DNA of 32,697 nt from Gallionellaceae bacterium. Its GTDB lineage: Bacteria > Pseudomonadota > Gammaproteobacteria > Burkholderiales > Gallionellaceae. A program made the translations under genes and the position numbers. Position 1 is the stretch's first letter. Each line of letters begins with the position of its first letter. This document shows positions 64 to 24,833 of the stretch, piece after piece. The notes below the pieces were generated by a model. The model saw only the letters and a program-made list of their open reading frames with translations, did no database searches and had not been told where the DNA came from. Location of the stretch: NCBI GenBank assembly GCA_008080515.1, contig VIKH01000021.1, positions 1-32,697 of the forward strand. Reading direction: 5' to 3'.

Positions 64-1125
64 CTACGTTTCTTCCGCCAGCGCCGCGAGCTGTTCCGCC
101 TGGTGCTCCGCCATCAGCGCGCCGGTGAGTTCGGCGATGTCGCCGTCCATGATGGCGTCCATTTTGTACAGGGTGAGGTTGATGCGGTGGTCGGTGACGC
201 GGCCCTGCGGAAAGTTGTAGGTGCGGATGCGCTCGGAGCGGTCGCCCGTGCCGACCAGCGATTTTCTTTCTGCCGCGATCTTGCCGTGGGCTTCGCGCTC
301 CTGCCGGTCCTTGATGCGCGCGGCCAGCACGCGCATCGCCTGCGCCTTGTTCTGGTGCTGCGAGCGCCCGTCCTGGCATTCCACCACGGTGCCGGAAGGC
401 AGGTGGGTGATGCGCACCGCCGAATCGGTCTTGTTGATGTGCTGGAAGGTGTCTATGCGCAGGTCGGCGGGGTTGAGCACCACGTCGCCGACTTCATCCG
501 CCTCCGGCAGCACCGCCACGGTGCAGGCCGAGGTATGGATGCGCCCCTGCGCTTCGGTGGCGGGCACGCGCTGCACGCGGTGCGCGCCGGACTCAAATTT
601 CAGCACCGAATAGGCGCCCTGCCCGACGATGCGCGCGATGATTTCCTTGAAGCCGCCTTTCTCTCCCGCGCTTTCCGAAACGACTTCCACCTGCCAGCGG
701 TTGCGCTCGGCGAAGCGCGCGTACATGCGGAACAGGTCGCCGGAAAACAGTGCGGCCTCGTCGCCGCCGGTGCCGGCGCGGATTTCCAGGAATACGTTGC
801 GCTCGTCGTTGGGATCTTTGGGCAGCAACTGTTTTTGCAAATCACACTCGAGCTGCTCCAAACGCGCGCGCCCTTCCTTCACTTCGGCGTCGGCAAACTC
901 GCGCATTTCGGGATCGCTCGCCATCTCCAGCGCGGTAGCGATGTCCGCGGCGCAGGACTGGTGTGCATGATAGAGAGTCACCACCGGATCCAGCTCTGCC
1001 CGCTCGCGATTGAGCTTGCGGAAGGCATCCATGTCGCGGGTGGCATCCTCGCTGCTCAACAGGCGACCGACTTCGTCCAGCCGCTCGCTGAGCTGGGCCA
1101 GTTTTGCTGCGATACTGGGTTTCAT
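64..1125 (-). CDS. prfA: Peptide chain release factor 1 (RF1), catalytic GGQ glycines deleted
   Basis: RF1 reads UAA and UAG in the ribosomal A site and triggers peptide release. The 353-residue product follows the family along its whole length: an N-terminal helical domain, the [10 protein letters not shown] segment, the PAT stop-codon recognition tripeptide in [17 protein letters not shown], and a C-terminus ending QLAALAEET. The catalytic loop is abnormal. The family has DTF-RSSGAGG-QHVNTTDSA, but here F227 is followed directly by Q228 in [12 protein letters not shown] (junction 444/445). Seven residues are gone, matching the length difference from E. coli RF1 (360 aa); Q228 corresponds to the PrmC-methylated Q235. 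The start ATG overlaps the hemA stop as ATGA, giving translational coupling. The gene itself ends in TAG. Identity is certain. Whether the 21 bp deletion is real or a sequence error is unresolved. Confidence 0.96.
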
Positions 1126-2375
1126 TCCGGGGTGTGCAGGTTGTAGATGCGGTGCACCATGTCGAGGAAATGCTCGCGCTCTTTGGCTTCAACGTGGTTC
1201 AGCGCGTGGGTGGGGGCGTGGAGGAATTTGTTGGTGAGACCGTTGCTCAACAACTCCAGCACTTTCTCCGCCGGTTCGCCCTTGGCCAGCAGGCGCAGGG
1301 CTTTTTCGATCTCGTGGCGGCGGTGGCGCTCGGCGTGGTTGCGCAGCGCCATGATGGTGGGCACCACTTCGCGCGACTCCATCCAGTGGATGAAGTCGGC
1401 CACGCCGGATTCGATGATAACTTCCGCTTCCTTCACCGCGCCCTGGCGCGCATCCAGGCCATCGCGCACCACCTCGGACAAGTCGTCCACAGTGTACAGG
1501 AACACGTCGTTCAGCTCGGCGACTTCTTCTTCCACGTCGCGCGGCACCGCCAGATCAACGATGAACAGCGGGCGGTGCTTGCGGATTTTCAGCGCCCGCT
1601 CGACCATGCCTTTGCCCAGTATCGGCAGCGGGCTGGCGGTGCAGGTCACGATGATGTCGTGCTGCGAAAGCTGTTCGGGCAGCTCGTTCAGCGTAATGGC
1701 GTGGCCGTTGATGCGCCGCGCCAGCGTCTGGGCGCGCTCCAGCGTGCGGTTGGCGACGGTGATGTGGCGGGGCGACCTGGCCGCAAAATGCACGGCGTTC
1801 AACTCGATCATTTCGCCCGCGCCGATAAACAGCACGCGCTGCTCGGCGATGCTGGGGAAGATGCGCTCGGCCAGCTTCACCGCAGCGGCCGCCATGGAAA
1901 TCAGGTTGGCGCCGATCTCGGTCTGGGTGCGCACATCCTTGGCCACCGAGAAGGTGCGCTGGAACAGCTTGTGCAGCAAAAAGCCCAGCGTGCCAGCCTC
2001 TTCCGCGTAGCGCACCGCCTGTTTCATCTGGCCGAGAATCTGCGGTTCGCCCAGCACCATCGAATCCAGCCCGCTGGCAACGCGGAAGGCGTGTTTGACC
2101 GCCTGCTCGCGCTGGAGCGTGTACAGGTAGGGCTCGATTTCGCGGGTTTCCATCTGGCGCGAACCGGCCAGCCAGTTGATGGCCTGCGCGGGCTCGATGG
2201 TGTTGCAATACACCTCGGTGCGGTTGCAGGTGGAGAGAATGGTCGCTTCCTTGGCCGCGCCGTGATCGATGAGGTTGCGCAGGGCCGGCTCCATCGCTTC
2301 CACCCCGAACGCAAAGCGTTCGCGCACCGTAAGCGGTGCGGTCTGATGATTGATGCCGAAAGCGAATAGCTGCAT
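1122..2375 (-). CDS. hemA: Glutamyl-tRNA reductase
   Basis: HemA reduces the glutamate of Glu-tRNA(Glu) with NADPH to glutamate-1-semialdehyde, the first committed step of C5 tetrapyrrole (heme) synthesis in the cytoplasm. The 417-residue protein is complete. It shows the N-terminal [18 protein letters not shown] segment, the catalytic cysteine in [10 protein letters not shown], the [18 protein letters not shown] signature, and the Rossmann segment [12 protein letters not shown] followed by TVANRT and [11 protein letters not shown]. The C-terminal dimerisation helices end in [17 protein letters not shown]. No gap is apparent relative to the family. The start ATG at 2375 gives the usual N-terminus, although no strong Shine-Dalgarno precedes it. 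It leads prfA with a 4 bp overlap, the usual hemA-prfA(-prmC) order. A consensus -10 lies about 42 bp upstream. Confidence 0.98.
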
Positions 2376-2590: not shown

Positions 2591-4150
2591 TCAGAACTGC
2601 ACCTGCAACGCCGCGTGCGCGCGGTTGCGGCCCGCTTCGGTGGACGCCGTGCCATTGAGCACGTGGGCGGCATCCAGCGTAAAGGAAAGGCGGCGACCAT
2701 CGCCCCAGCGCAACCCAGCGCCGACGCTCGATGCATCCTGCCGCGCGATCTGCCCCGCCGCCGGGTTCTTGGCCCACACCTCGCCGTTGTCCGCGAACAG
2801 GACGGCGCGCGCGCCCTCCCACGGCAGCGGCGCGGAGGCTTCCAGGGAAAGCGAGTGGCCGTTTTCCCCGCTGGCCTCGCGCTCGTTCAGACCGCGCACG
2901 CTCTGCGCGCCGCCGATGCCGAACTGCTCGCCGGGGATGAGCGGCTCGTCCGCGTATTGTCCCTGCATCTGCGCGCCGAGCGTCCAGCGCCCGAGCGCCC
3001 AACCGCCTTCCAGCGAAAAGCGCCATGCGTCCCAATCGCGTTTTGCGCCGGCGCGGTTGCCGAGGTAGGCCGCATCGGTGTTGTCGCCGCCTCCGCCAAG
3101 GTTGCGCGCGTAGCCGAGCGATCCGCCGAGCGATCCGCCCGCCATGTCGTAACGGCCCTGGTAGCCGAGAGAAAGCGGCTGGCTGCGCACGTTCACCCCG
3201 ATCTGTGCTGCGCCGAACACCACGCTGTTGTCGAAAAACCGGTCTTCCGCGCCCGCTTCGAGCGAGTGCGAATACGCGCCAACCGGCACCAGATGCTGTT
3301 TCCAGCGCGCGCCGAAAAACTTGCCGCCGCCGCTCACCTGGAATGCGTCGGCAATCGTGCCGGAATTGACGTTCGAGTAAGAGGCGAATGCGGTGAGGCT
3401 GCCGCCCTGCGCATAGAACGGCACGGTGTAGAACATGCCGTACTGTCTTACATCGCCCCAGTGACCCGGCGACGAAGTATAGCTCGCCGAGAGCGCGTGG
3501 TCGCGGTCGAAGAGATTGCCGTGCCGCACGCCGACCGTGGCGCGCCAGTCGCCGGTGCGGTCCTCGCCGGTGTTTTGCAAGGACGCATAGACGCTCAGCG
3601 GCGGGCTATCCTGCACTTTGACATCCGCGTCCACCGCATCCGGCATCCGGCTCTGCTGGAAGGTTACTTCCACCCGCTTCGCGGGATGCTCGTTGACGTG
3701 CGCCCGGTTGCGCGCGACCCTGGCGACGTTGGGTGATTCGCCCTGCCTGAGCGCGGGAAGGCTCGCGAGCACGTTTTCGTTCGAGAAGTTATGGTTGCCG
3801 GAAACCGCGATGCCCGCGAGCTTGAACGGCAGCACGCGCAGCCTTACCACAGAGCCTTCAAGTGTCTGCGGCGGCAGCACGACGCGATAGAACGCATGGC
3901 CGCGCGCGGAGAGCTCGGCTTCCAGCGCCTTTGCGGCCCCCTGCAACTGCTCCAGGCCGACGGACTCTCCGACAAAAGGCGCGAGCACCACCTGCGCCTG
4001 CTCGCGCGGAATCGGCAGTTCGCCCTCGATCTCGAACCCGCGCGCCTGGAAGCGCGGCGGTTCTGGCTCGGACGCCGCAAATGCCGGAATGGCCGTCAGA
4101 GCAGTGACAATTACTACCAGCAATGCCCCCCGTTTATTCCTGTAGCTCAT
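2591..4150 (-). CDS. TpsB-type outer-membrane transporter (ShlB/FhaC/HecB family)
   Basis: TpsB proteins are Omp85-superfamily 16-strand barrels with two periplasmic POTRA domains that export a partner TpsA exoprotein. The 519-residue protein has a signal peptide (about residues 1-25, ending AIPAFA). POTRA-1 starts at FEIEGELPIP and POTRA-2 contains IAVSGNHNFSNENVLASLP. The barrel region carries the conserved VRG motif (about residues 418-420, in SVRGLNEREASGENGHSLSLE) and ends in phenylalanine, the BamA recognition signal. The start is ATG at 4150 because GAGGAGGAATTG directly precedes it; the upstream in-frame TTG at 4153 is less likely. The ATG overlaps the DUF559 stop (TGATG). Its likely substrate is the TpsA at 8610-14888, although the two genes are separated by three others, whereas partners are usually adjacent. 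The stop is TGA. Confidence 0.93.
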   Translation of the reverse strand: MSYRNKRGALLVVIVTALTAIPAFAASEPEPPRFQARGFEIEGELPIPREQAQVVLAPFVGESVGLEQLQGAAKALEAELSARGHAFYRVVLPPQTLEGSVVRLRVLPFKLAGIAVSGNHNFSNENVLASLPALRQGESPNVARVARNRAHVNEHPAKRVEVTFQQSRMPDAVDADVKVQDSPPLSVYASLQNTGEDRTGDWRATVGVRHGNLFDRDHALSASYTSSPGHWGDVRQYGMFYTVPFYAQGGSLTAFASYSNVNSGTIADAFQVSGGGKFFGARWKQHLVPVGAYSHSLEAGAEDRFFDNSVVFGAAQIGVNVRSQPLSLGYQGRYDMAGGSLGGSLGYARNLGGGGDNTDAAYLGNRAGAKRDWDAWRFSLEGGWALGRWTLGAQMQGQYADEPLIPGEQFGIGGAQSVRGLNEREASGENGHSLSLEASAPLPWEGARAVLFADNGEVWAKNPAAGQIARQDASSVGAGLRWGDGRRLSFTLDAAHVLNGTASTEAGRNRAHAALQVQF

Positions 4151-4659
4151 CAATTCCTCCTCGCAAGCACAGCCTCATGCGCTCCCTCTCCTTCAAGGAG
4201 AGGGCGGGGGTGAGGATGGGTTTTCATCAACCCCCCCACAAGCACAGCCTCATGCGCTCCCTCTCCTTCAAGGAGAGGGTTGGGGTGAGGATGGGTTTCA
4301 TCAATCTCCCGCAACACCATCCAGATCTTTTCTTTGACGGCCTCGAGATTTCCAAATACCTCGTTATTCCAAAAGCGCAATACACGGAATCCCGCCTTGG
4401 CTAATTTATCTGTCCGGGCCGCATCAGCTTCCATCTGTCCTCCGTGTTGCCCTCCATCCACCTCAACCACAAGTTTCATCCCCATACATACAAAATCCAG
4501 GATGAAATCGTCAAAGGGATGCTGGCGGCGAAACTTGTATCCAGCCATCTGTCTGCCACGTAATGCCTGCCAGAGCAGCCGTTCGGCATCCGTCATCGTC
4601 TTGCGGAGATTACGCTGGAGTGCGTTTTCAAGAATCGCTTTGTTTGTCTGCCCTCTCAT
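4150..4659 (-). CDS. DUF559 (Vsr/PD-(D/E)xK-like) endonuclease-domain protein
   Basis: The protein resembles the DUF559 family, small proteins with a very-short-patch-repair-like nuclease fold. The core runs from NAILENALQRNLRKTMTDAERLLW-type sequence through GYKFRRQHPFDDFILDFVC and VVEVDGGQH to GFRVLRFWNNEVFGN; the acidic and glutamate residues of VVEVDGGQH are the likely catalytic centre. ATG at 4659 (MRGQTNKA) is preferred, with AGAGG six bases upstream. The ORF stays open to 4740, but that stretch only translates a palindromic repeat. The C-terminal 45 or so residues (two HPHPNPLLEGEGAHEA-like units) are also translated repeat and not part of the family fold. Substrate and role are unknown. 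It separates the coiled-coil gene from tpsB and looks inserted. Confidence 0.8.
   Translation of the reverse strand: MRGQTNKAILENALQRNLRKTMTDAERLLWQALRGRQMAGYKFRRQHPFDDFILDFVCMGMKLVVEVDGGQHGGQMEADAARTDKLAKAGFRVLRFWNNEVFGNLEAVKEKIWMVLREIDETHPHPNPLLEGEGAHEAVLVGGLMKTHPHPRPLLEGEGAHEAVLARRN
4164..4304. repeat. Two direct copies of a 67 bp palindrome-bearing repeat
   Basis: The unit beginning CAAGCACAGCCTCATGCG occurs at 4164-4230 and 4239-4304 with only a few differences. Each copy contains a perfect 21-mer palindrome, CCCTCTCCTTCAAGGAGAGGG (4184-4204 and 4259-4279), then a GGGGTGAGGATGGG tail. Both lie inside the 3' end of the DUF559 ORF and are translated as repeated peptides. The left copy begins 3-4 bp from the tpsB Shine-Dalgarno. 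Confidence 0.92.
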
Positions 4660-7781: not shown

Positions 7782-8619
7782 GAGATACCTCCCTGCGCTC
7801 TGGGCTGGGCGACCGGATGATGCCCATCGCGCTTTCGAATAGAAAGGCGTCTGTGCTGACTTCCGCAAGCCGACCGCTCCACACCTGCGCGTTACCTGCA
7901 AGGAGCGTGAGGTGTGCCTTGCCCTCGCGCGGTGAAATCTCCCGGTATTCATAACGGTTGACTGCCAGGCGGCTGCGTTCGGCGAGCGTGACGCGCGCGC
8001 CGTCGCTGAACAGCAGCACGGCGTAGCTGTTTGCTCCGGTGGCGATGCCTTCGCGCTCGTGGATCGCCGCGCCAGGAACGAGCAGCCTGGCATTGCCGCC
8101 GACGCTCGAAGCAGCGGCGTACCCCTTCATCTCGACCACGCGCGCCACCGGCTGGTCTAAACCACGCGGTGCCGGGCGCGAACGATCTTCCTGCGCGCAA
8201 TCCTCCTCGCACAGCCGCGCGTCGAATTCCGCCGCGCGAGCGGTGCCCGGATTGCTGGTAATGCGCGCGCCGCCCTTCACCAGCCCGCGCAGCAGTGACT
8301 CCGGCTTGCCGGGCGAGAGCGCATCCATGCGAAAGACGGTGTCCGGACGGAGCGTTGCCTGGGTGCGGTCGGCAAATTCGATAACGGCGTAACTTTTCGG
8401 CCCGACGCTGATCACATCCTGCTCGTCCAGGGTATCGGCGACTCCGAGTATGCGCGTTGCGGCACCCGCGCGCTGCAAGGTGGAAACCCCCTCAACCGAA
8501 AGCACTTTTGCCGCTTCGCGCGCGAACGATGGAGAGGGGCAGGCGAAAGCTGCGGCGATCAGGCAGGAGAGGAGGAAGAAAAGGCTCCGGTCGGTATTGC
8601 GACCCAAGGTTAGCGGCAT
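7774..8619 (-). CDS. Secreted FecR-domain protein
   Basis: The 281-residue protein has an N-terminal signal peptide (hydrophobic LFFLLSCLIAAAFA, probable cleavage after PSFA, about residue 33). Two FecR-type segments follow: one around GPKSYAVIEFADRTQATLRP and a second around GANSYAVLLFSDGARVTLAE. The FecR fold is best known from the periplasmic sensor that controls FecI. There is no sigma factor or TonB receptor here and no N-terminal cytoplasmic anti-sigma helix, so this belongs with the stand-alone secreted FecR proteins found beside large surface proteins. AAAGGAGAACTGGT precedes ATG 8619, which overlaps the TpsA stop by 10 bp. Its own stop (TAA) overlaps the next gene by 8 bp. This tight coupling supports one operon. 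Function is unknown; a periplasmic assembly role is inference. Confidence 0.85.
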   Translation of the reverse strand: MPLTLGRNTDRSLFFLLSCLIAAAFACPSPSFAREAAKVLSVEGVSTLQRAGAATRILGVADTLDEQDVISVGPKSYAVIEFADRTQATLRPDTVFRMDALSPGKPESLLRGLVKGGARITSNPGTARAAEFDARLCEEDCAQEDRSRPAPRGLDQPVARVVEMKGYAAASSVGGNARLLVPGAAIHEREGIATGANSYAVLLFSDGARVTLAERSRLAVNRYEYREISPREGKAHLTLLAGNAQVWSGRLAEVSTDAFLFESAMGIIRSPSPERREVSHE

Positions 8620-11600
8620 ACCAGTTCTCCTTTATCTTCCGTGCTACCCGGCTCGCCGCTGGAAGTTGGGGGTGGCGTGGCGGCGAGGAACATATCGTCG
8701 AGGATGCGCGTGTTGTTTGCCGAAACAGTAGAGAACGAATTCCGGTAGAGGCTGTTGTTGCCTTGCGCGGCCCCTGCAAGCGGATGCGGCACCTGTTCAT
8801 TGGATCGGAGATAGGGCGAGGATGCGCCGGGGTCTATACCCCAGGTGCCGACAAAGTCCAAGCCTGCGAAGCTGGCCTGCTGCGCCATCTGGCTGCTGTT
8901 CAGCCCGGTGCAGCCCGAAACCGCCGCGCCCGATGTGCAATTCAATTGGCCCGAGGCCAGGATGTCCCAGTAGGACCTGTTTATGGTGCCTGGAGCCATT
9001 CCGCCTATCAACCCACCGACTACACTGCTGCCCGTTACGCCGCCAACGCTGTATGAATCGTTGATTACGCCATAACTTTGATGGCCGACCAAGCCACCGA
9101 CCATGCTAACCCCGCGCACCCGACCGGTAGCATAGGTGTTTTCAATGACAACGCTGCCCCCGTCGTTGAAGCCAATCAACCCACCAACCTTGTTGATGCC
9201 GGTTGCGCTGCTGGTGCTATAGGAATTGCTGACTGTGAAATCGTTCTTACCTATCAACCCTCCGACGTTGTTTTCACCGCTTACGACAGATGAGCTCCAC
9301 GAGCTGCTGACATTACCTGCATTGGCGTTAACGCCCACCAGACCTCCTACAGAATCCCTGCCATGCACGTTGCCTGTGGCATAAGAATTGGCTACAGTGC
9401 TGCCGCTGTTAAGCCCCACAAGCCCACCGGCCCGATCAAAGGCAGCGTCCACCGTGCCCGTGGCATATGAATTAGTGATTGTGTTATTGTGGTTATCCCC
9501 GACCAGTCCCCCAACATTCCCGCCGCCGCTCACGCTGCCTGTCGCGTAGGAGCCGGTGATGGAACTTCCGGTGGTGTAGCCAACCAATCCGCCAATGTGG
9601 TTGTGGCCCGAACCATAACTCTCGAAGGTACGGCCAACCACATTGCCCGTGCTGTATGAGTTATCAATGCTGCCACCGAAGGCCGCGCCGACCAGCCCGC
9701 CAACATATTTGTGCCCGGTCACACTGCTTGAACTGCTGGAATTACTGATGCTTCCCAGGTTATTCCAGCCGACCAAGCCTCCAACGACGGCATTGTCAAA
9801 GCCCCCCCCGCCGGTCACGTTGCCGCTGCTGCTGGATTCGGCAATAGAACCGGTATTGATACCAACCAAGCCACCGATATCGTCACGCCACCCACTATTG
9901 CTCATGACATCGGCATTGCTATGGGAATTCGTAATGGCTCCGGCATTATTCCCGACAAGCCCGCCCACACCCCGCCGGCCCCTGATGCTGCCGTTTTCGA
10001 TAGCAACATTCCTGATAGCGGCGACCCCACTGGCATCGCCAAACACTCCAATATTATCGTGGGTGGGCCTATTAATCGTGACCTCTCTGATGACATGCCC
10101 AAGCCCATCAAAGATGCCGGTGAAGTTCGTGATGCTGTCACCAACCGGCGCAAAACCCGCGCCGCCGTTCCACGCGGAAGTCGCGGAAGCGTCTATATCC
10201 GACCCCAGGGCATAACGGGTTGACAGATTGCCGCTCATCCCCTGCAAATCGAGGCCGGTAGTGCTGCCCGCCGCGCCGAGGCCATTGATGACGGTGTAGG
10301 GTTGCCCGCCGATGGTGAGGATGCCGGGGCCGGACTGCCAGATATGGATTTTCGCGCCAGCGCCCAGGGTGTAGGTGTTGAGGCTCAAGTGCCCGTAGGA
10401 GGTGAGCGCCTCGCCGGCGCCCAGAGCGAGGCCGCCGCCGAAGCTGCCGCCGCCGTCCCAGAGCGTCAGCCTGGAGCCGCCGGAAAGCACCAGGCTGGCA
10501 TCGCATTGCAGCGAGTTGACCGAGTGCGCGCCGGAAGCGAGAGTCACCGTGCCGGCAGACGCGGCGATGACCACGTCATCGGTTGACACCGGCAGCGCGT
10601 CGGCGCTCCAGTTGGCCGGCGTCAGCCACAAGCCGTCGCTCCCGCCGCCATCCCAGAAAATTCCCAAGGCGGCGAATGCTGCGGTGACGTCGCCGGCGTT
10701 GTAGGCGAGGGTCGGATTGAGCGCCCCGGTCTGGCTGGCGAACGTGCCGCCGATGGATGATGCAGTCAGGAACGGAAAGCTGCCGCTGGTCGCCACACCG
10801 GTGAAATTCACTGTTCCGCCCAACGTCGCCGAGCCCGACACGGTCAGCACGTCATATTGCCCGGCGGCTGTGCCGTCAAGTTCAATGTTCAGCGTCCCGC
10901 CCGCGCCTTGCGTGTAGTTGCCGGAGATGGTCAGCGTGCTGGCCGAATTCCCCGGTGCGACGGAGCCGTTGTTGGTGACGTTGGCGGTGACCGCGCCGTT
11001 GCCGGTGAGTAGGCCGCTCGGCGTGACGGTGATCCCCGTTGCCGTGATGCTGCCCGCGCCTGCGCGTAGCGTTCCGGCCACGCTCATGGTCGAGGTCGAG
11101 CCGATCGAGCCGCCGCTTGCAATCAGCGTCGCGCCGGTGTTGATGGTCGAGGGGCCGGTCAGATTCAAGGAACCGGACCGCACGTCGAGGCTGCCGCCCG
11201 CAAGAGTAAGTCCGCCCAGGCCCAGCGCCGGGCCGTTTAGCACGCGCGCGCCAGCGCCGGTGACGTTGAACGCCGCGCCGCCCGCCATCGCGAGGCTGCC
11301 GGTGCCGCTGAACGAGCCGCCGAGCCAGTTGAAGGCGCCGCCGGTTTTGGTCAGCGAACTCCCCGCCGCGAGGTTGAGCGTGCCGGAAGTCATGTCGAGC
11401 GTGCTGCCGCCGACATCGCTGGCGCCGCCGCTCACGTTCAGCGTGCCCTGGTTGTCGAGGCTGCCGCTGATCGTGCTGCCGGAAAGAGCCAGTGTCCCGA
11501 GGTTATGCAGAACTCCGGCGCCGCCCAAGGTAACTCCGGCAAGCGGCACCGTTGTCCCGGCGGCGATGGTGGCGCCCGCGCCCGTGCCGTTGATGCCGAC

Positions 11601-14600
11601 ACCGGAACTGAGATTGAACGTGCCCGCGCCGCTCAATGTGGCGCCGTCGCCCAGATTCATCGGCCCGGCAAAGTTCAGGGTGGCTCCAGATGCCACGCTG
11701 AAGGTGCCCGTTTGCGTGCCCGCGACGCCGAAGTCCAGCGTTCCGGTCACGACATCCACGGTGCCGGAGTTGGTGAAGGCGATGGCGTTGTCGCCGATCT
11801 GCGTGGTGCCGGTGCCGCCGTTTTTGCGCAAGGTGCCGCTATTGTTGAAGCTCATGCCCGTCAAAGACCGGTTCATCACCGCATCGCTCTGCATTACCAG
11901 CACGCCCGCGTTGTTAAACGCGGCGGGGCCCGTCAGGGTGATGCTGCCCAAGCCTCCCCAGATGCCGGTGGGGCTGTTGCTGGTCAGGGTGCGGGTATCG
12001 AGCCACTTGTTGGCCGCGCCGGTAACGGTAAAGGTTGCGGTATTCGCGACTGTCGTTGAACCTGCTCCCGATTGGATGCCGCCCGACCAGATAAAGCTGT
12101 TGCTGACAGCCACGGCCCCGCTGCCCGCCAGGGTGCCGCCCTGCATGTCGAGCGAGGCGAGCGAGGTCGCGCCGCCGAAGGTGGCCGTGCCGCCGGAGAG
12201 TGTGAAGGTCGTCCCGGCGCCGAACGTCGTTGCGCCGGAGACGGAAATGCCGCCGCCCGCGCTGTTCAGGATGAGGTTTTCAAGGCTGGTGAGGCTACCC
12301 AGAGAGGTGGTCGCGGCATCGGTATAGTTGATGGAGATCGAGTCCGGCGCGTCAATGTACACGCTGTTTCCGGTTGTGGGAACGTGGAAGCCGAACCAGT
12401 TGGCTGGCGTGCTCCAGTCGCCGCTGGCGCGACCGGTCCAGCAGGCGCCGTAGGGGCAACTCGGCAATGCCCTGAGTGTCGGATAGGCACCGTCGCTCAT
12501 CAACCAGACTGCGGGATCCCAGGCCGCGCCGGTGAACGTGGCCGCCGTCTTCATCTGTGCGGTGGTGAGGCCCGTGCCGTAGGCGCTGGTCGCCTGCCCG
12601 CTGGTCTGCGTGTCCCAGAAGCTGTTGCTGATGACACTCAGGTAACCCGGTTGCTGACCGCCAACCAGGCCGCCGACGTTGCTTGATCCGGTCACCAGGC
12701 CGGTGGCGTAGGTGTTCCAGACCGAGGCCCACATGATGCTGCCCACCAACCCACCGACGTTGCTCGTGCCCGTGACGTTTCCGGTGGCATAGCCGTCGCC
12801 GATCCATATCCGGCCCGCGTAGCCTATCAGTCCGCCGCTCCTGTTGCCGCCAGTCACGTTGCCGCTGGCGTAGCTCCTGAGAATGGTTACGTCGGAGGCG
12901 CTTCCCGCAAGCCCGCCCGTGGAGTCGGGGCCGCTCACATTGCCGGTTGCATAGCTGTCGGTAATCAGGCCGGTCGCGGATCCCACAAGCCCGCCGTAAC
13001 CGTAATAATTGCCCGTCACGTTGCCCGTGGCGAAGCTCCTGCTGATGGTGCCGTTATGCTGGCCCACCAGGCCGCCGGCCACGATGCCGTTGCTCCACCA
13101 GTTCCACGGGATCGTCACGCTGCCGGTGTTAAACGTGTTGTAGATGGTGCTGTGCCAGCCGTGGCCCACCAGGCCGCCGACATAGCTATGGCCGATCACG
13201 CTGCCGCCCATCAGACCGACGTTGGCTATCGTTGCCGGACCGACGTAGTTACCGAATCCGTCTTGACTCCGAACATCGCCGAACATCCCCACATTGTCTT
13301 GGGCCGGGCGGTTGATGGTCAGGTTGCCGATGGTGTGGCCCAGTCCGTTGAACTGGCCGGTGAATGACCCGACCGGATTGAAGCCCGCTCCGGCATTCCA
13401 GCCACTGGTGGCGGTAGCGTCTATGTCGCTACCCAGCGCGTAGTTCCCGGCCAGCCCGCCGTTCATGCCCTGCAAATCCGTGGCTGTAGTGCTGCCCGCC
13501 GCACCCAGGCTGTTGATGACGGTAAAGCCGTTGCCGTTGATGGTGAGGAAGCCGGTGCCGGAGAGACCGGGAAAATCAATCCGGCCGAGGAAGCCGCTGC
13601 CGTTCATGCCGACCTTGACCGCACCGCCGGGGGTGTTCATCGCTAGCGCCGAGGTGCCGGAGGCGGTCATCACGGCGTTGATGTTGATGTCGCGCACGGC
13701 GGTGAGGGTGAGGGTATTGGCGCCCCAGGAGACGGCATCGTTCACATGGATGTCGCCGTTGCCGGTGGTGCCCGTTCCGCAGGTTGCGCCAGTGCAGGAG
13801 GCCGTGGTGGCGGTGGTCTGGATGGTCACACTATTGTCGACAAGCGCCGCTCCCAACGCCGCGCCAGTGATGTCGCCGCCGCTGGCGGCAATGGTGAAGT
13901 CGTTGGGGTCGAGCAGCCACTGGCCGCCGCCGGTATCCACGCGGATGCCGTTGACATCCAGCGTGTGCGCCGAGGTCTCGACGAAGCCGCCTTTGCCGTC
14001 GGCGCCCCTGGCACTGATCGTGCCGTGGGCGCGCGCCGTGTCGTCCGACCAGACGAGCACGCTGGCGCCTTCGCCGCTCGCCGCGACGTTCGAACCCGCC
14101 TCCAGCACCGCCTCGCCTGTCGCCGACAGCGTGACGCGATTGGCGTGTATCTCGCCAGAATGGCGCAGCGTGCCAGCGAACATGGCGGCGGCGTTCTTCG
14201 CCTCGATGGTACCGAGGTTGAGCGCGCTGTCGGCGGGCGCTTGCAGCGCGAACTGCACGCCCTGCGCGTCGGGGCCGGAAATGGTGACGGACTGGCCTGC
14301 CGCGAGCAGCACGCTGCCCGCGTCGCTGCGGATGAGTCCCGCATTTTCGATTTGCGGGCCGACGAGGAAAATGTCGCCGCTCGCACGGATCGCACCTTCG
14401 TTGCGCAACACACCCAGGCCGCCACCCTCGAAGCGCAGCCGCCCCTCAAGGAAATCGCGGTCGGAGATGTCGAGCGTGGAGGCGATGAAACCGGCGGTAT
14501 CTATCGTCGCTCCCTTGCCGAACACGATGCCGTGCGGGTTGACCAGGAACACGCGGCCATTGGATTGCAGCGAGCCGAGCAGGCTGGAAGGGTCTGCCCC

Positions 14601-14888
14601 GGTGACGCGGTTCAATACCGCGCTCGACGCGGATTGCTGGGCGAAGCGGGTGGCTTCGTTCGCACCTATCGAGAAGCTTTGCCAGTTGATGATCGCGCCG
14701 GGGCTGTTGGTGACGGTGAGGGTGTTGCCGGAAGCGGCGAAACCAGCCTGGCCGCTGGCGACGGATGCGCCTGCCGGGTTGGCTTGCGCGTGCTGCACGA
14801 TCGCGGGCTGGGCGGCAAAGGCCAGCAGCAGCGCGGCGCACAGGGGTTTGACGCGGTATTGCGGATGGCGGTTTGTTTTTCTGAGCAC
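8610..14888 (-). CDS. TpsA-family exoprotein with FHA N-terminal domain and GLUG repeats
   Basis: This very large (2092 aa) two-partner secretion substrate is presumably a surface or released adhesin-like beta-helix. The signal peptide ends about residue 36 (QPAIVQHAQA). The TPS domain follows, with NPHGI at about 117-121 (the family's NPNGI motif) and FGKGATIDTAGFIAST. Then comes a module with YALGSDIDATATSGWNAGAGF and GLGHTIGNLTINRP, and a block of GLUG repeats (GGLVG plus NSYATGNV-type). The middle is strand-rich (SGTLxxNxG-like). A second copy of the YALGSDIDA module and a longer GLUG block complete the protein. GTG 14888 is chosen because AGGGAGAAG stands eight bases upstream and a normal long TPS signal peptide follows. 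An alternative GTG at 14981 has no such site. It heads the operon with fecR and the coiled-coil gene. Its exporter is probably the TpsB at 2591-4150. Ligand unknown. Confidence 0.9.
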   Translation of the reverse strand: MLRKTNRHPQYRVKPLCAALLLAFAAQPAIVQHAQANPAGASVASGQAGFAASGNTLTVTNSPGAIINWQSFSIGANEATRFAQQSASSAVLNRVTGADPSSLLGSLQSNGRVFLVNPHGIVFGKGATIDTAGFIASTLDISDRDFLEGRLRFEGGGLGVLRNEGAIRASGDIFLVGPQIENAGLIRSDAGSVLLAAGQSVTISGPDAQGVQFALQAPADSALNLGTIEAKNAAAMFAGTLRHSGEIHANRVTLSATGEAVLEAGSNVAASGEGASVLVWSDDTARAHGTISARGADGKGGFVETSAHTLDVNGIRVDTGGGQWLLDPNDFTIAASGGDITGAALGAALVDNSVTIQTTATTASCTGATCGTGTTGNGDIHVNDAVSWGANTLTLTAVRDININAVMTASGTSALAMNTPGGAVKVGMNGSGFLGRIDFPGLSGTGFLTINGNGFTVINSLGAAGSTTATDLQGMNGGLAGNYALGSDIDATATSGWNAGAGFNPVGSFTGQFNGLGHTIGNLTINRPAQDNVGMFGDVRSQDGFGNYVGPATIANVGLMGGSVIGHSYVGGLVGHGWHSTIYNTFNTGSVTIPWNWWSNGIVAGGLVGQHNGTISRSFATGNVTGNYYGYGGLVGSATGLITDSYATGNVSGPDSTGGLAGSASDVTILRSYASGNVTGGNRSGGLIGYAGRIWIGDGYATGNVTGTSNVGGLVGSIMWASVWNTYATGLVTGSSNVGGLVGGQQPGYLSVISNSFWDTQTSGQATSAYGTGLTTAQMKTAATFTGAAWDPAVWLMSDGAYPTLRALPSCPYGACWTGRASGDWSTPANWFGFHVPTTGNSVYIDAPDSISINYTDAATTSLGSLTSLENLILNSAGGGISVSGATTFGAGTTFTLSGGTATFGGATSLASLDMQGGTLAGSGAVAVSNSFIWSGGIQSGAGSTTVANTATFTVTGAANKWLDTRTLTSNSPTGIWGGLGSITLTGPAAFNNAGVLVMQSDAVMNRSLTGMSFNNSGTLRKNGGTGTTQIGDNAIAFTNSGTVDVVTGTLDFGVAGTQTGTFSVASGATLNFAGPMNLGDGATLSGAGTFNLSSGVGINGTGAGATIAAGTTVPLAGVTLGGAGVLHNLGTLALSGSTISGSLDNQGTLNVSGGASDVGGSTLDMTSGTLNLAAGSSLTKTGGAFNWLGGSFSGTGSLAMAGGAAFNVTGAGARVLNGPALGLGGLTLAGGSLDVRSGSLNLTGPSTINTGATLIASGGSIGSTSTMSVAGTLRAGAGSITATGITVTPSGLLTGNGAVTANVTNNGSVAPGNSASTLTISGNYTQGAGGTLNIELDGTAAGQYDVLTVSGSATLGGTVNFTGVATSGSFPFLTASSIGGTFASQTGALNPTLAYNAGDVTAAFAALGIFWDGGGSDGLWLTPANWSADALPVSTDDVVIAASAGTVTLASGAHSVNSLQCDASLVLSGGSRLTLWDGGGSFGGGLALGAGEALTSYGHLSLNTYTLGAGAKIHIWQSGPGILTIGGQPYTVINGLGAAGSTTGLDLQGMSGNLSTRYALGSDIDASATSAWNGGAGFAPVGDSITNFTGIFDGLGHVIREVTINRPTHDNIGVFGDASGVAAIRNVAIENGSIRGRRGVGGLVGNNAGAITNSHSNADVMSNSGWRDDIGGLVGINTGSIAESSSSGNVTGGGGFDNAVVGGLVGWNNLGSISNSSSSSSVTGHKYVGGLVGAAFGGSIDNSYSTGNVVGRTFESYGSGHNHIGGLVGYTTGSSITGSYATGSVSGGGNVGGLVGDNHNNTITNSYATGTVDAAFDRAGGLVGLNSGSTVANSYATGNVHGRDSVGGLVGVNANAGNVSSSWSSSVVSGENNVGGLIGKNDFTVSNSYSTSSATGINKVGGLIGFNDGGSVVIENTYATGRVRGVSMVGGLVGHQSYGVINDSYSVGGVTGSSVVGGLIGGMAPGTINRSYWDILASGQLNCTSGAAVSGCTGLNSSQMAQQASFAGLDFVGTWGIDPGASSPYLRSNEQVPHPLAGAAQGNNSLYRNSFSTVSANNTRILDDMFLAATPPPTSSGEPGSTEDKGELVCR

Positions 14889-15013
14889 GGTTGACTTCTC
14901 CCTGTCGAACGGTGTCGGCCTTAACTTACTATCGTTGTTATTGTCAGAGTGCAGGAGCGAAAGGATTGTGCGCTCGCCCACAAGGAAAGTAAATTGTACT
15001 GAAGTACAGTATT

Positions 15014-18848: not shown

Positions 18849-21412
<2,564 letters not shown>

Positions 21413-21473
21413 TTCATCATCCCAAAAACAATGCACGTTGCGTCATGCACTAAAAATATTATGAAGGCAGTGA

Positions 21474-21643: not shown

Positions 21644-23732
21644 TTACCGCGCTTCCTCCCTTTGCCGCAGCGCCCGCCACAGCCACCAGCCGAACACCGC
21701 CAGCGCCATACCGGACAGCCACAGCGGCAGCAGGACGGGCTGGTTCCATTCCCGGCGCAGTTCGTCGCGCTGCGCGGTTTCGATGCGCAGGTACTTGAGG
21801 TTGTTGTTCGCCATTTTGTTGGGCTTGCTGTTGTGCAGCCAGCCGTGGCGCAGCACGTAATCCTTGGGATGGTGGCCCCACAGCCAGGGCGAATCGCGGC
21901 GCAGGATTTCCAGCATCTGGTCTATGATTTTCTGCCGCGCCTCGCTATTCGGCATGTTCTTCATCTGCTCGAACAGGCGGTCATATTCCGGGTTGCTGTA
22001 ATTGGCCGCGTTCTCGCCACCCTTACCCACCTTGGCTTGCGGGCCGTGCAGCAGGAACAGGAAATTTTCCGGATCGGGGTAGTCGGCGTTCCAGCCGAAG
22101 TAGAACAACTGCGTATCGCCTCGGCGCACCTTGTCCTGGAAGCGGTTGTAGTCGGTGCTTCGCACCACCAGTTGCAGGTTGAGTTTGTCGAACTGCTTGC
22201 GCAGCCAATCCAGGCGCGACTTGTTGCCGACACCCGTGGCGGTGGTGTCGAGGTAGATCACCAGCGGCTGTTTGGTTTTTTCATCCAGCCCATCGGGGTA
22301 GCCCGCTTCGGCCAGCAGTTTTTTCGCTTCCTCAATCGGCTTGCGTTTGGGCATTCCGTTCGCCCAGTCATAGACGTAGCGATTGATGCCTGCCTCGCCT
22401 TCGCGGTAGCCGAAGATGCCGGGGGGAATCGGCGATTGCGCCGCAATGCCGCGCCCGTTGGCGAAGATGGAAATGAATTCCTCGAAATCTATCGCGATGG
22501 CAATGGCACGGCGCAGTTTGCTCGCACGCGCGCTGCTCCCGCCCACCACCGGATCCAGCCAATTAAAGCCCATGTACATGGTGGAAGTGGCGACTGAAGT
22601 GGAGAGCGTGATGCCCTGCTCCTTCATGTCGTCGGTGACATTGGTCTCTCCGGCGACGCTTACCTGCACCGCCTGATCGAAGCTGTCCGAGCTGATGCCT
22701 GAAGCATCGTAATAGCCTTGCAGGAACTTGTTCCAGTAGGGGATGGTTTCCTTCTCCAGGCTGAATACCACCTGGTCAATCAGCGGCAACGGCTTGCCCG
22801 CATCCGCCAGTATCCCGGCCTCCTGATCGCCCGGCTCGCCTTCGGCGGGGTAGCTCTCGCCGGAATAATTCGGGTTGCGGCTCAGCACCATGCGCTGGTT
22901 GGGGTTGTTCTCCGACAGGTAATACGGCCCGCTGCCCACCGGCCACCAGTCCAGCGTGATGTTGCGGCGCGAAGAACGGCATCGCCAGCCAGTAGGCAAA
23001 CTGCGGGTATTTGCCGTACACCTTGATGCGGTAGGTGTGCTCATCCACCGCCCGCGCGCCTTCCAGCGGATAATCGTTCAAATCGAGAAAGGCATCGGGT
23101 TGCGCCTTTTGCGCCTGCCCCAGGGTGCCCGCATAGTCCTTGAGTCCGACGACATATTCCGCCATCAGCCCGGCAATCGGCGAATGGATGGACGGGTGCG
23201 CCAGCCGCTTGATCTGGTACACATAGTCTGCCGCCCTGACTTCGCGCGTGCCTGTGTGCGGAAAGCCGCTCAACGCATGGATGTCGCGCAGATCGCCCGG
23301 CTTGAGCGCGAGGTATTCCGGCCGGCCCTGCGCGTCGCGCGCAAACGCCGGGTGCGGCTGGTAGCGCTGGCCTGGGCGCAACTTGATTTCATACTCGCTG
23401 AACGCGACCTTTTCTGCGGGCGCATCATCCGGCAGCGGGCGGTTGTCCTTGTCCAGATAGCGCACGGCTGGCAGCGTGGAGGCCGCCTGCGGCACCAGGC
23501 TGTAGGGGCGTTTCAGGTAATGGTATTGCAGCGGCGGCAGGTAGATTTGAGCGAGGAAAATGTACTCGTTTTCGCTGTAGGCTTGAGCCGGATCGAGGTG
23601 CTTGGGGCGCTCGGTGAACGCCGTGTAGAAAATGGGCTTGCCCTTGTCCGCCGCCGGGTAGGGGTTGTTCCACAGCCAGCCATCGCAGGCGGCGAGCAAT
23701 AACGGAATCAGCAGGCAGGGCAACCATCTCAT
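21644..23732 (-). pseudogene. Peptide-ABC-type solute-binding lipoprotein (SBP family 5), frameshifted
   Basis: The 5' frame begins MRWLPCLLIPLLLAACDGW, a lipoprotein signal with lipobox LAAC. It continues with FYTAFTERPKHLDPAQAYSENE and DYVYQIKRLAHPSIHSPI, typical of family 5 extracellular binding proteins. It runs well to YWLAMPFFAP near 22970. The 3' frame resumes at RNITLDWWPVGSGPYYLSEN and continues through NPNYSGE, FNWLDPVVGG, LRRAIAIAIDFEEFI, the FGWNADYPDPENF motif and a C-terminal membrane helix, LLPLWLSGMALAVFGWWLW. About 15-20 residues and the frame are lost between them. Homologues normally precede permease and ATPase genes; here the next gene downstream is alaS, so it is an orphan. 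The C-terminal helix with an N-terminal lipid anchor is unusual for a soluble binding protein. No strong ribosome-binding site. The stop is TAA. Confidence 0.85.
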
Positions 23733-23804
23733 AAGGCAAGAGTTTAGCCGAAACCACCTGTGTCGCGGTAAAATCAGCGGACGAGAAATAACCGGAATAA
23801 CCCC

Positions 23805-24833
23805 ATGAACCAGGCTTGGCAGGACTTTCTTTTGCAACAGCGCGCCACGATAGAAAACGGCGTAGCGCAACATTTTGGCGACCCCGCCGCAGAACTGAAT
23901 GCTGCGAGCGACGGCACGGTGCTGTGCGACCTCAGCCAGTTCGGCGTGCTCAAGGTCGCAGGCGAGGATGCGCAAAATTTCCTGCAGAACCTGTTGAGCA
24001 GCGACGTGCAGGCGGTCAGCGCGACGCAGGCGCAGCCGAGCAGCCTCAACACCCCCAAGGGGCGTATATTGGCGACCTTCCTGATCTGGCAAACGGGGAA
24101 CGATCGCTTCCTGCATCTGCCGCGCGTGCTCTGCCCGGCTATCCAGAAGAAGCTTTCCCTGTATGTGCTGCGCGCCAAGGTGAAAATTTCCGACGCCAGC
24201 GATGAAACGGTTTGCCTCGGCTTATCCGGGCCGGACGCTGCCATGCTGGTGCAGCAATGCTTCGGCTCGGCACCGCATGAAACATTGCAGGCCGAGCAGC
24301 ACGAAACCGCCGGTGTCATTTACTGCGGCGCGCAGCGTTTCCAGATCAACACCACCCCGCAACATGCGCCGGATCTGTGGACAAGCCTGAGCAAGACCGC
24401 GCGTCTAGCCGGGTCGGTTTGCTGGGACTGGCTCAACATCCGCGCCGGCATTCCGGTCATCCAGCCCGCCACGCAGGAACAGTTCGTGCCGCAGATGGCG
24501 AACCTCGAACTGATCGGCGGCGTCAGCTTCAAGAAAGGCTGCTACCCCGGCCAGGAAATCGTCGCGCGCATGCAATATCTCGGCAAGAACAAGCGCCGCA
24601 TGTATCTGGCGCATGTGGGCGGCGGCACCGCTCCGCAACCGGGGGACGAGCTATTCAGCGAGGACATGGAAGAGCAGGCGAGCGGCATGGTGGTCAACGC
24701 CACCCCGGCACCGTCAGGCGGCTACGATTTGCTGGCGGTGGTGCAGATCAGCAGCCGCGAAAGCCATGCGCTGCACTTGAAAGACCGGAGCAGCGCGGCA
24801 ATTCAATTCCTGCCGCTGCCTTACCCGGTATAG
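23805..24833 (+). CDS. ygfZ: YgfZ/GcvT-domain folate-binding protein
   Basis: YgfZ is a tetrahydrofolate-dependent factor that helps make or repair certain Fe-S proteins in the cytoplasm. The 342-residue product carries the hallmark KGCYPGQEIVAR loop with its essential cysteine (family KGCYTGQE). Upstream are the GcvT-like features SLNTPKGRILATFLIW and CWDWLNIRAGIPVIQPATQEQFVPQMANLELIGGVSF. The start ATG 23805 has GGAATAACCCC before it. It is divergent from the binding-protein gene (72 bp gap) and convergent with pssA. It looks complete. The stop is TAG, one of seven TAG stops in the window. Confidence 0.94.
   Translation: MNQAWQDFLLQQRATIENGVAQHFGDPAAELNAASDGTVLCDLSQFGVLKVAGEDAQNFLQNLLSSDVQAVSATQAQPSSLNTPKGRILATFLIWQTGNDRFLHLPRVLCPAIQKKLSLYVLRAKVKISDASDETVCLGLSGPDAAMLVQQCFGSAPHETLQAEQHETAGVIYCGAQRFQINTTPQHAPDLWTSLSKTARLAGSVCWDWLNIRAGIPVIQPATQEQFVPQMANLELIGGVSFKKGCYPGQEIVARMQYLGKNKRRMYLAHVGGGTAPQPGDELFSEDMEEQASGMVVNATPAPSGGYDLLAVVQISSRESHALHLKDRSSAAIQFLPLPYPV

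Follow-up and report, generated by a model that had tools for sequence, protein, structure and literature searches.

In bacterial release factor 1 (RF1, described by the profile TIGR00019), codon recognition involves PAT, a motif of the PxT type, and catalysis the GGQ motif. The rescue factors ArfB and PrfH have the RF-1 domain in common with RF1; they retain GGQ and are devoid of the N-terminal domains of RF1. A release factor homologue without GGQ has been described in plant plastids, i.e., PrfB3, which, according to the accessible part of PMC5897788, is related to RF2, occurs as an extra copy and no longer has the stop-codon motif either. No paper on a deletion of GGQ was found in our literature search.

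The stretch of DNA analysed here, referred to as the window, is 32,697 nucleotides long and belongs to the draft genome of a Gallionellaceae bacterium (G000), which was compared with two congeners (G001 and G002) and with other genomes of the family. Near its start lies a prfA gene that resembles bacterial RF1 in its full-length match, its PCRF and RF-1 domains, its PAT motif and its hemA neighbour, but differs from it in being without seven residues, through the GG of GGQ, that are present in the relatives. It has the RF-1 domain in common with ArfB and PrfH, and is like PrfB3 in being a release factor homologue without GGQ. The features concerned are the following:

64 to 1125, minus strand: prfA (RF1), 353 aa, without the 7 residues that precede the Q of GGQ (TIGR00019)
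445 to 446, minus strand: junction at which the relatives carry 21 bp more (congener alignment, family spans and letter-by-letter reading)
1122 to 2375, minus strand: hemA, intact neighbour of prfA (TIGR01035, 442.2 bits, cut-off 209.55)

The whole protein matches TIGR00019 with 481.2 bits, above the cut-off of 423.25, and both domains are present (PCRF, PF03462, 239.5 bits; RF-1, PF00472, 111 bits). The codon-recognition motif is kept, the translation reading VPATEAQG, and the catalytic motif is missing, the contig reading DTFQHIN. As the initial annotation had noticed, IDTF is joined directly to QHINKTDSA in the 353-aa frame, and the loss is exactly 21 bp and in frame, both congeners carrying 21 bp more at 446. 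Its description of the missing family segment was right in that seven residues ending in GAGG stand between the two, but the spelling RSSGAGG was not recovered, the relatives carrying RASGAGG. The gap at 446 is the only one in the part of prfA that could be aligned with either congener (starting at position 77 for G001 and 70 for G002), to which the gene is 94% and 91% identical, respectively. The ends of the gap, judged on the G001 sequence, have 2 bp in common, so that the position of its border is uncertain by 2 bp; with only 2 bp in common, slippage on a longer repeat offers no explanation for it. If true, the missing GGQ would overturn the view of this motif as indispensable in RF1.

A search of 41 genomes of the family returned an RF1 match in 39, including the window's own. 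In all 38 others the span of the match, computed from its coordinates, equals three times the aligned residues plus exactly 21 nt, and each of the 29 relatives read letter by letter carries GAGGQ. On these two counts, a loss of GGQ throughout the clade was rejected. The alignment of prfA from relatives, which had been proposed as a check, thereby indicates that the 21-bp gap is private to the G000 assembly. The dN/dS ratio of prfA is 0.080 and 0.111 against the two congeners, compared with 0.106 between both intact congeners; apart from the gap, the constraint on the gene, as estimated from these ratios, is normal and no relaxation is seen. The gene hemA adjoins prfA in G001 as well. The 3′ neighbour of prfA in G001, named prmC by eye, is found in G000 on a separate contig (C49, 67% identity), which says nothing either way, because prmC is needed by RF2 too.

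The RF-1-domain matches of G000 are three in number: the window prfA, an RF2-like gene on contig C180 (a 375-aa frame with 39% identity to the window RF1, its assignment to RF2 being putative and made outside the NCBIfam scan), and an arfB on contig C52, which was named by NCBIfam and carries GAGGQ. The suggestion that another RF1 exists was not borne out, and the recommended search for a second prfA or a prfH in the rest of the genome, which is estimated to be 90.49% complete, found neither among these matches. This outcome bears directly on the possibility, also raised in the initial annotation, that the protein is a decoy or moonlighting RF1 which binds stop codons without cleavage. The retention of PAT and of the remaining domains speaks in its favor, and the accessible part of PMC5897788 provides in PrfB3 a precedent for such a homologue. 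However, PrfB3 is an extra copy in which GGQ and the codon motif are both lost, whereas the window prfA is the sole RF1 found in G000 and keeps PAT; moreover, the gap is shared by none of the 38 relatives, being confined to one draft genome with similar gaps in core genes, and a scan of contigs (see below) contained no deletion among its 29 hits, within the limits of that scan. We therefore consider a decoy of the PrfB3 type extremely improbable.

Seven of the 22 gene-like frames chosen for listing in the window end in TAG, the same number that had been counted originally. For a comparison with G001, 141 gene pairs were drawn up, 39 of which were removed because their ends were unmatched; among the 102 kept, which may still include some antisense frames, TAG is the stop in 27 genes of G000 and 21 of G001, and in 12 it is the stop in both. 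A reassignment of the stop codon that would make RF1 dispensable was rejected, TAG still being an ordinary stop at 27 of 102. According to the available part of PMC5373646, E. coli K-12 can do without RF1 when it has the RF2-B variant; loss of RF1 is thus not invariably lethal, and lethality alone cannot decide the case. This precedent, together with the presence of an RF2-like gene and arfB in G000, would be compatible with a fixed and real loss of RF1 catalysis, in which RF2 and the rescue factor ArfB handle termination. Such a loss is nevertheless very unlikely: TAG stops are as common as in the congener, the constraint on prfA is not relaxed, binding of UAG with no release would presumably be worse than having no factor at all, and further essential genes of the same assembly are damaged. 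A protein of this kind would, by established knowledge, be inactive, as had been stated, but its reading as a real, inactive factor found no support, and it would be most surprising if a living bacterium possessed a sole RF1 that binds UAA and UAG without hydrolysis while RF2 and ArfB terminate, i.e., a natural decoy release factor.

The initial annotation saw no other defect, which is correct for prfA, with VPATEAQG kept and no second gap, but not for the contig, in which alaS and a second gene are broken:

18849 to 20006, minus strand: C-terminal part of alaS, its frame differing from that of the N-terminal one; a net 84 bp is missing at 19597
19943 to 21436, minus strand: N-terminal part of alaS; frame shifted by 52 bp missing at 20045
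21644 to 24116, minus strand: one gene lying in two frames, with about 50 bp missing at 22964; solute-binding-protein-like by eye

The best stretches of the two alaS frames cover positions 1–375 and 620–847 of the 847-position model. The C-terminal piece has a match in 18 of 21 genomes, its own included, and in 11 of the 17 others the match consists of two pieces around the gap, this comparison being based on matched pieces. The gene at 21644–24116 gave no NCBIfam match at 1e-20. A dispersed repeat at about 20173–20301 lies in frame inside the window alaS, adding 32 aa relative to G001, and another, at about 22525, is inside the gene of both relatives and missing from the window; both recur elsewhere in each of the three genomes of the genus, and the length differences preserve the frame. 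In another part of the window, the frames at 2591–4153 (520 aa) and 8610–14981 (2123 aa, with repeats) look by eye like a two-partner-secretion-like transporter and a large exoprotein.

Similar damage was found elsewhere in G000. In ribF 39 bp are absent: among the 19 other matching genomes of the family, 17 have a single full match whose span is longer by 39 nt, G007 (the 18th) shows the stretch within one of its two pieces, and the result for G012 (the 19th) is ambiguous. Further, 84 bp are absent from gspE and 78 bp from a CorC-like gene, which scores under the NCBIfam cut-offs. The sole match to tRNA-Gln(UUG) in G000 (L119:12918, contig C10) extends over 57 of the 108 query bases and is without the first 18 nt of the tRNA, the remainder being 100% identical to G001; ARAGORN found this tRNA in G001 (L159:10412–10487) and none in L119 of G000. 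Both alaS and the UUG-reading tRNA-Gln are indispensable, and the assembled sequences therefore cannot all match the DNA of the cells, unless the tenth of the genome that is missing from the assembly contains intact copies. Frame-split genes number 17 in G000 and 6 in G001, counts from which no rate can be taken because the lists include antisense frames. A 32-bp tandem duplication in contig C59 of G000 (L140:1300) breaks a frame found undivided in G001, the gene being putatively similar to a dissimilatory sulfite reductase subunit.

These additional lesions also weigh on the idea of a minority allele, in which the deletion would be real in some of the cells or DNA molecules and its path would have been picked by the assembler. 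Small deletions are ordinary mutations, and a draft genome of 183 contigs can blend variants; on the other hand, alaS, ribF and tRNA-Gln would each also need a minority variant that was picked over an intact majority, and we regard this explanation as improbable.

The frequency of such gaps was followed in 40 stretches of G000 plus the window, i.e., 594,439 of 2,914,701 bases, a sample that was partly selected in that it contained contigs named by earlier searches; two G001 contigs were included for matching the damaged genes of the window. A gap was counted as long and clean when it amounted to at least 20 bp net and left at most 5 bases in the shorter sequence. Over 131,858 aligned bases, 12 such gaps were absent from G000 versus 2 from G001 (one of these two “losses” being the 32-bp tandem duplication of G000), and over 52,093 aligned bases there were 6 absent from G000 versus 2 from G002. 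When the window, which had been selected for its gap, was left out, the numbers became 8 versus 2 and 3 versus 2, respectively. The control pair of G001 and G002 was balanced, with 3 and 4 absent over 81,229 aligned bases, and by eye these seven gaps sit in low-complexity, intergenic or repeat sequence. Gaps of 1–19 bp showed no excess (59 in G000, 72 in G001), and at the protein level there were 14 gaps of at least 5 aa in G000 versus 13 in G001; with the threshold raised to 12 aa, the numbers were 7 versus 2. Only long clean gaps are in excess in G000. Of the long gaps in G000, 16 are distinct, and at least 3 of these (L114:17827, L137:9359 and window 22526) coincide with hairpin or dispersed repeats of the relatives and probably reflect genuine divergence between the genomes; that at L135:15411 sits where G001 and G002 also differ. 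Because the short and protein-level gaps are balanced, repeats are involved and the sample is partial, the case rests on the position of the gaps in conserved segments of core genes more than on their rate.

The possibility of a sequence error, one of those listed in the initial annotation, is favored because the gap is absent from 38 relatives and similar clean gaps occur in other core genes of the same assembly, such as alaS, ribF and gspE. The real prfA very probably carries an ordinary GGQ, the 21-bp gap having been introduced by the draft assembly or its consensus. The gaps presumably originated in library making, sequencing or assembly, and not in living cells. Against an error stands the observation that the prfA gap is exactly in frame, which would be true of 1 in 3 random gaps. 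Judged from these comparisons, the gap is most likely biologically ordinary and does not reflect the organism itself. In draft genomes, essential genes can contain clean gaps that keep the frame and mimic startling biology, which calls for caution; such gaps can be exposed cheaply by comparing other core genes of the same assembly with those of close relatives.

The wider scan of contigs looked for RF-like sites in which the codon before Q does not start with G and the Q is followed by the context QH[VIM]N[KNT]T[DE]xA, which every one of the 29 family relatives read by letter has; the scan is blind to changes that leave a G-initial codon before Q, may omit the window's own genome and is no census. 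Its 29 hits comprised 23 with TGA, three single-codon variants and three chance matches (L015, L016 and L038), and within these limits none was a deletion of GGQ. In the 23 loci (L010, L011, L012, L014, L017–L022, L024–L035 and L037), of which 19 are labelled Gracilibacteria, 3 Patescibacteria and 1 “bacterium”, TGA is the codon of the second GGQ glycine, and in five of them (L014, L020, L025, L027 and L031) both glycines are TGA. Under genetic code 25, TGA is read as Gly, which gives an ordinary GGQ in all 23. The active site of the release factor itself, presumed to be RF1, would in these loci depend on reassigned UGA. A catalytic glycine of a release factor that is encoded by UGA is a more interesting observation than the prfA gap; the term “GGQ” occurs nowhere in the main text of PMC8629427, the part of that paper considered here. 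In the three single-codon variants, found in three draft genomes, the second GGQ glycine is replaced through a codon that is one base from a glycine codon:

L013: GSQ, in an RF2
L023: GCQ, in an RF2 cut by the contig end
L036: GRQ, in an RF1
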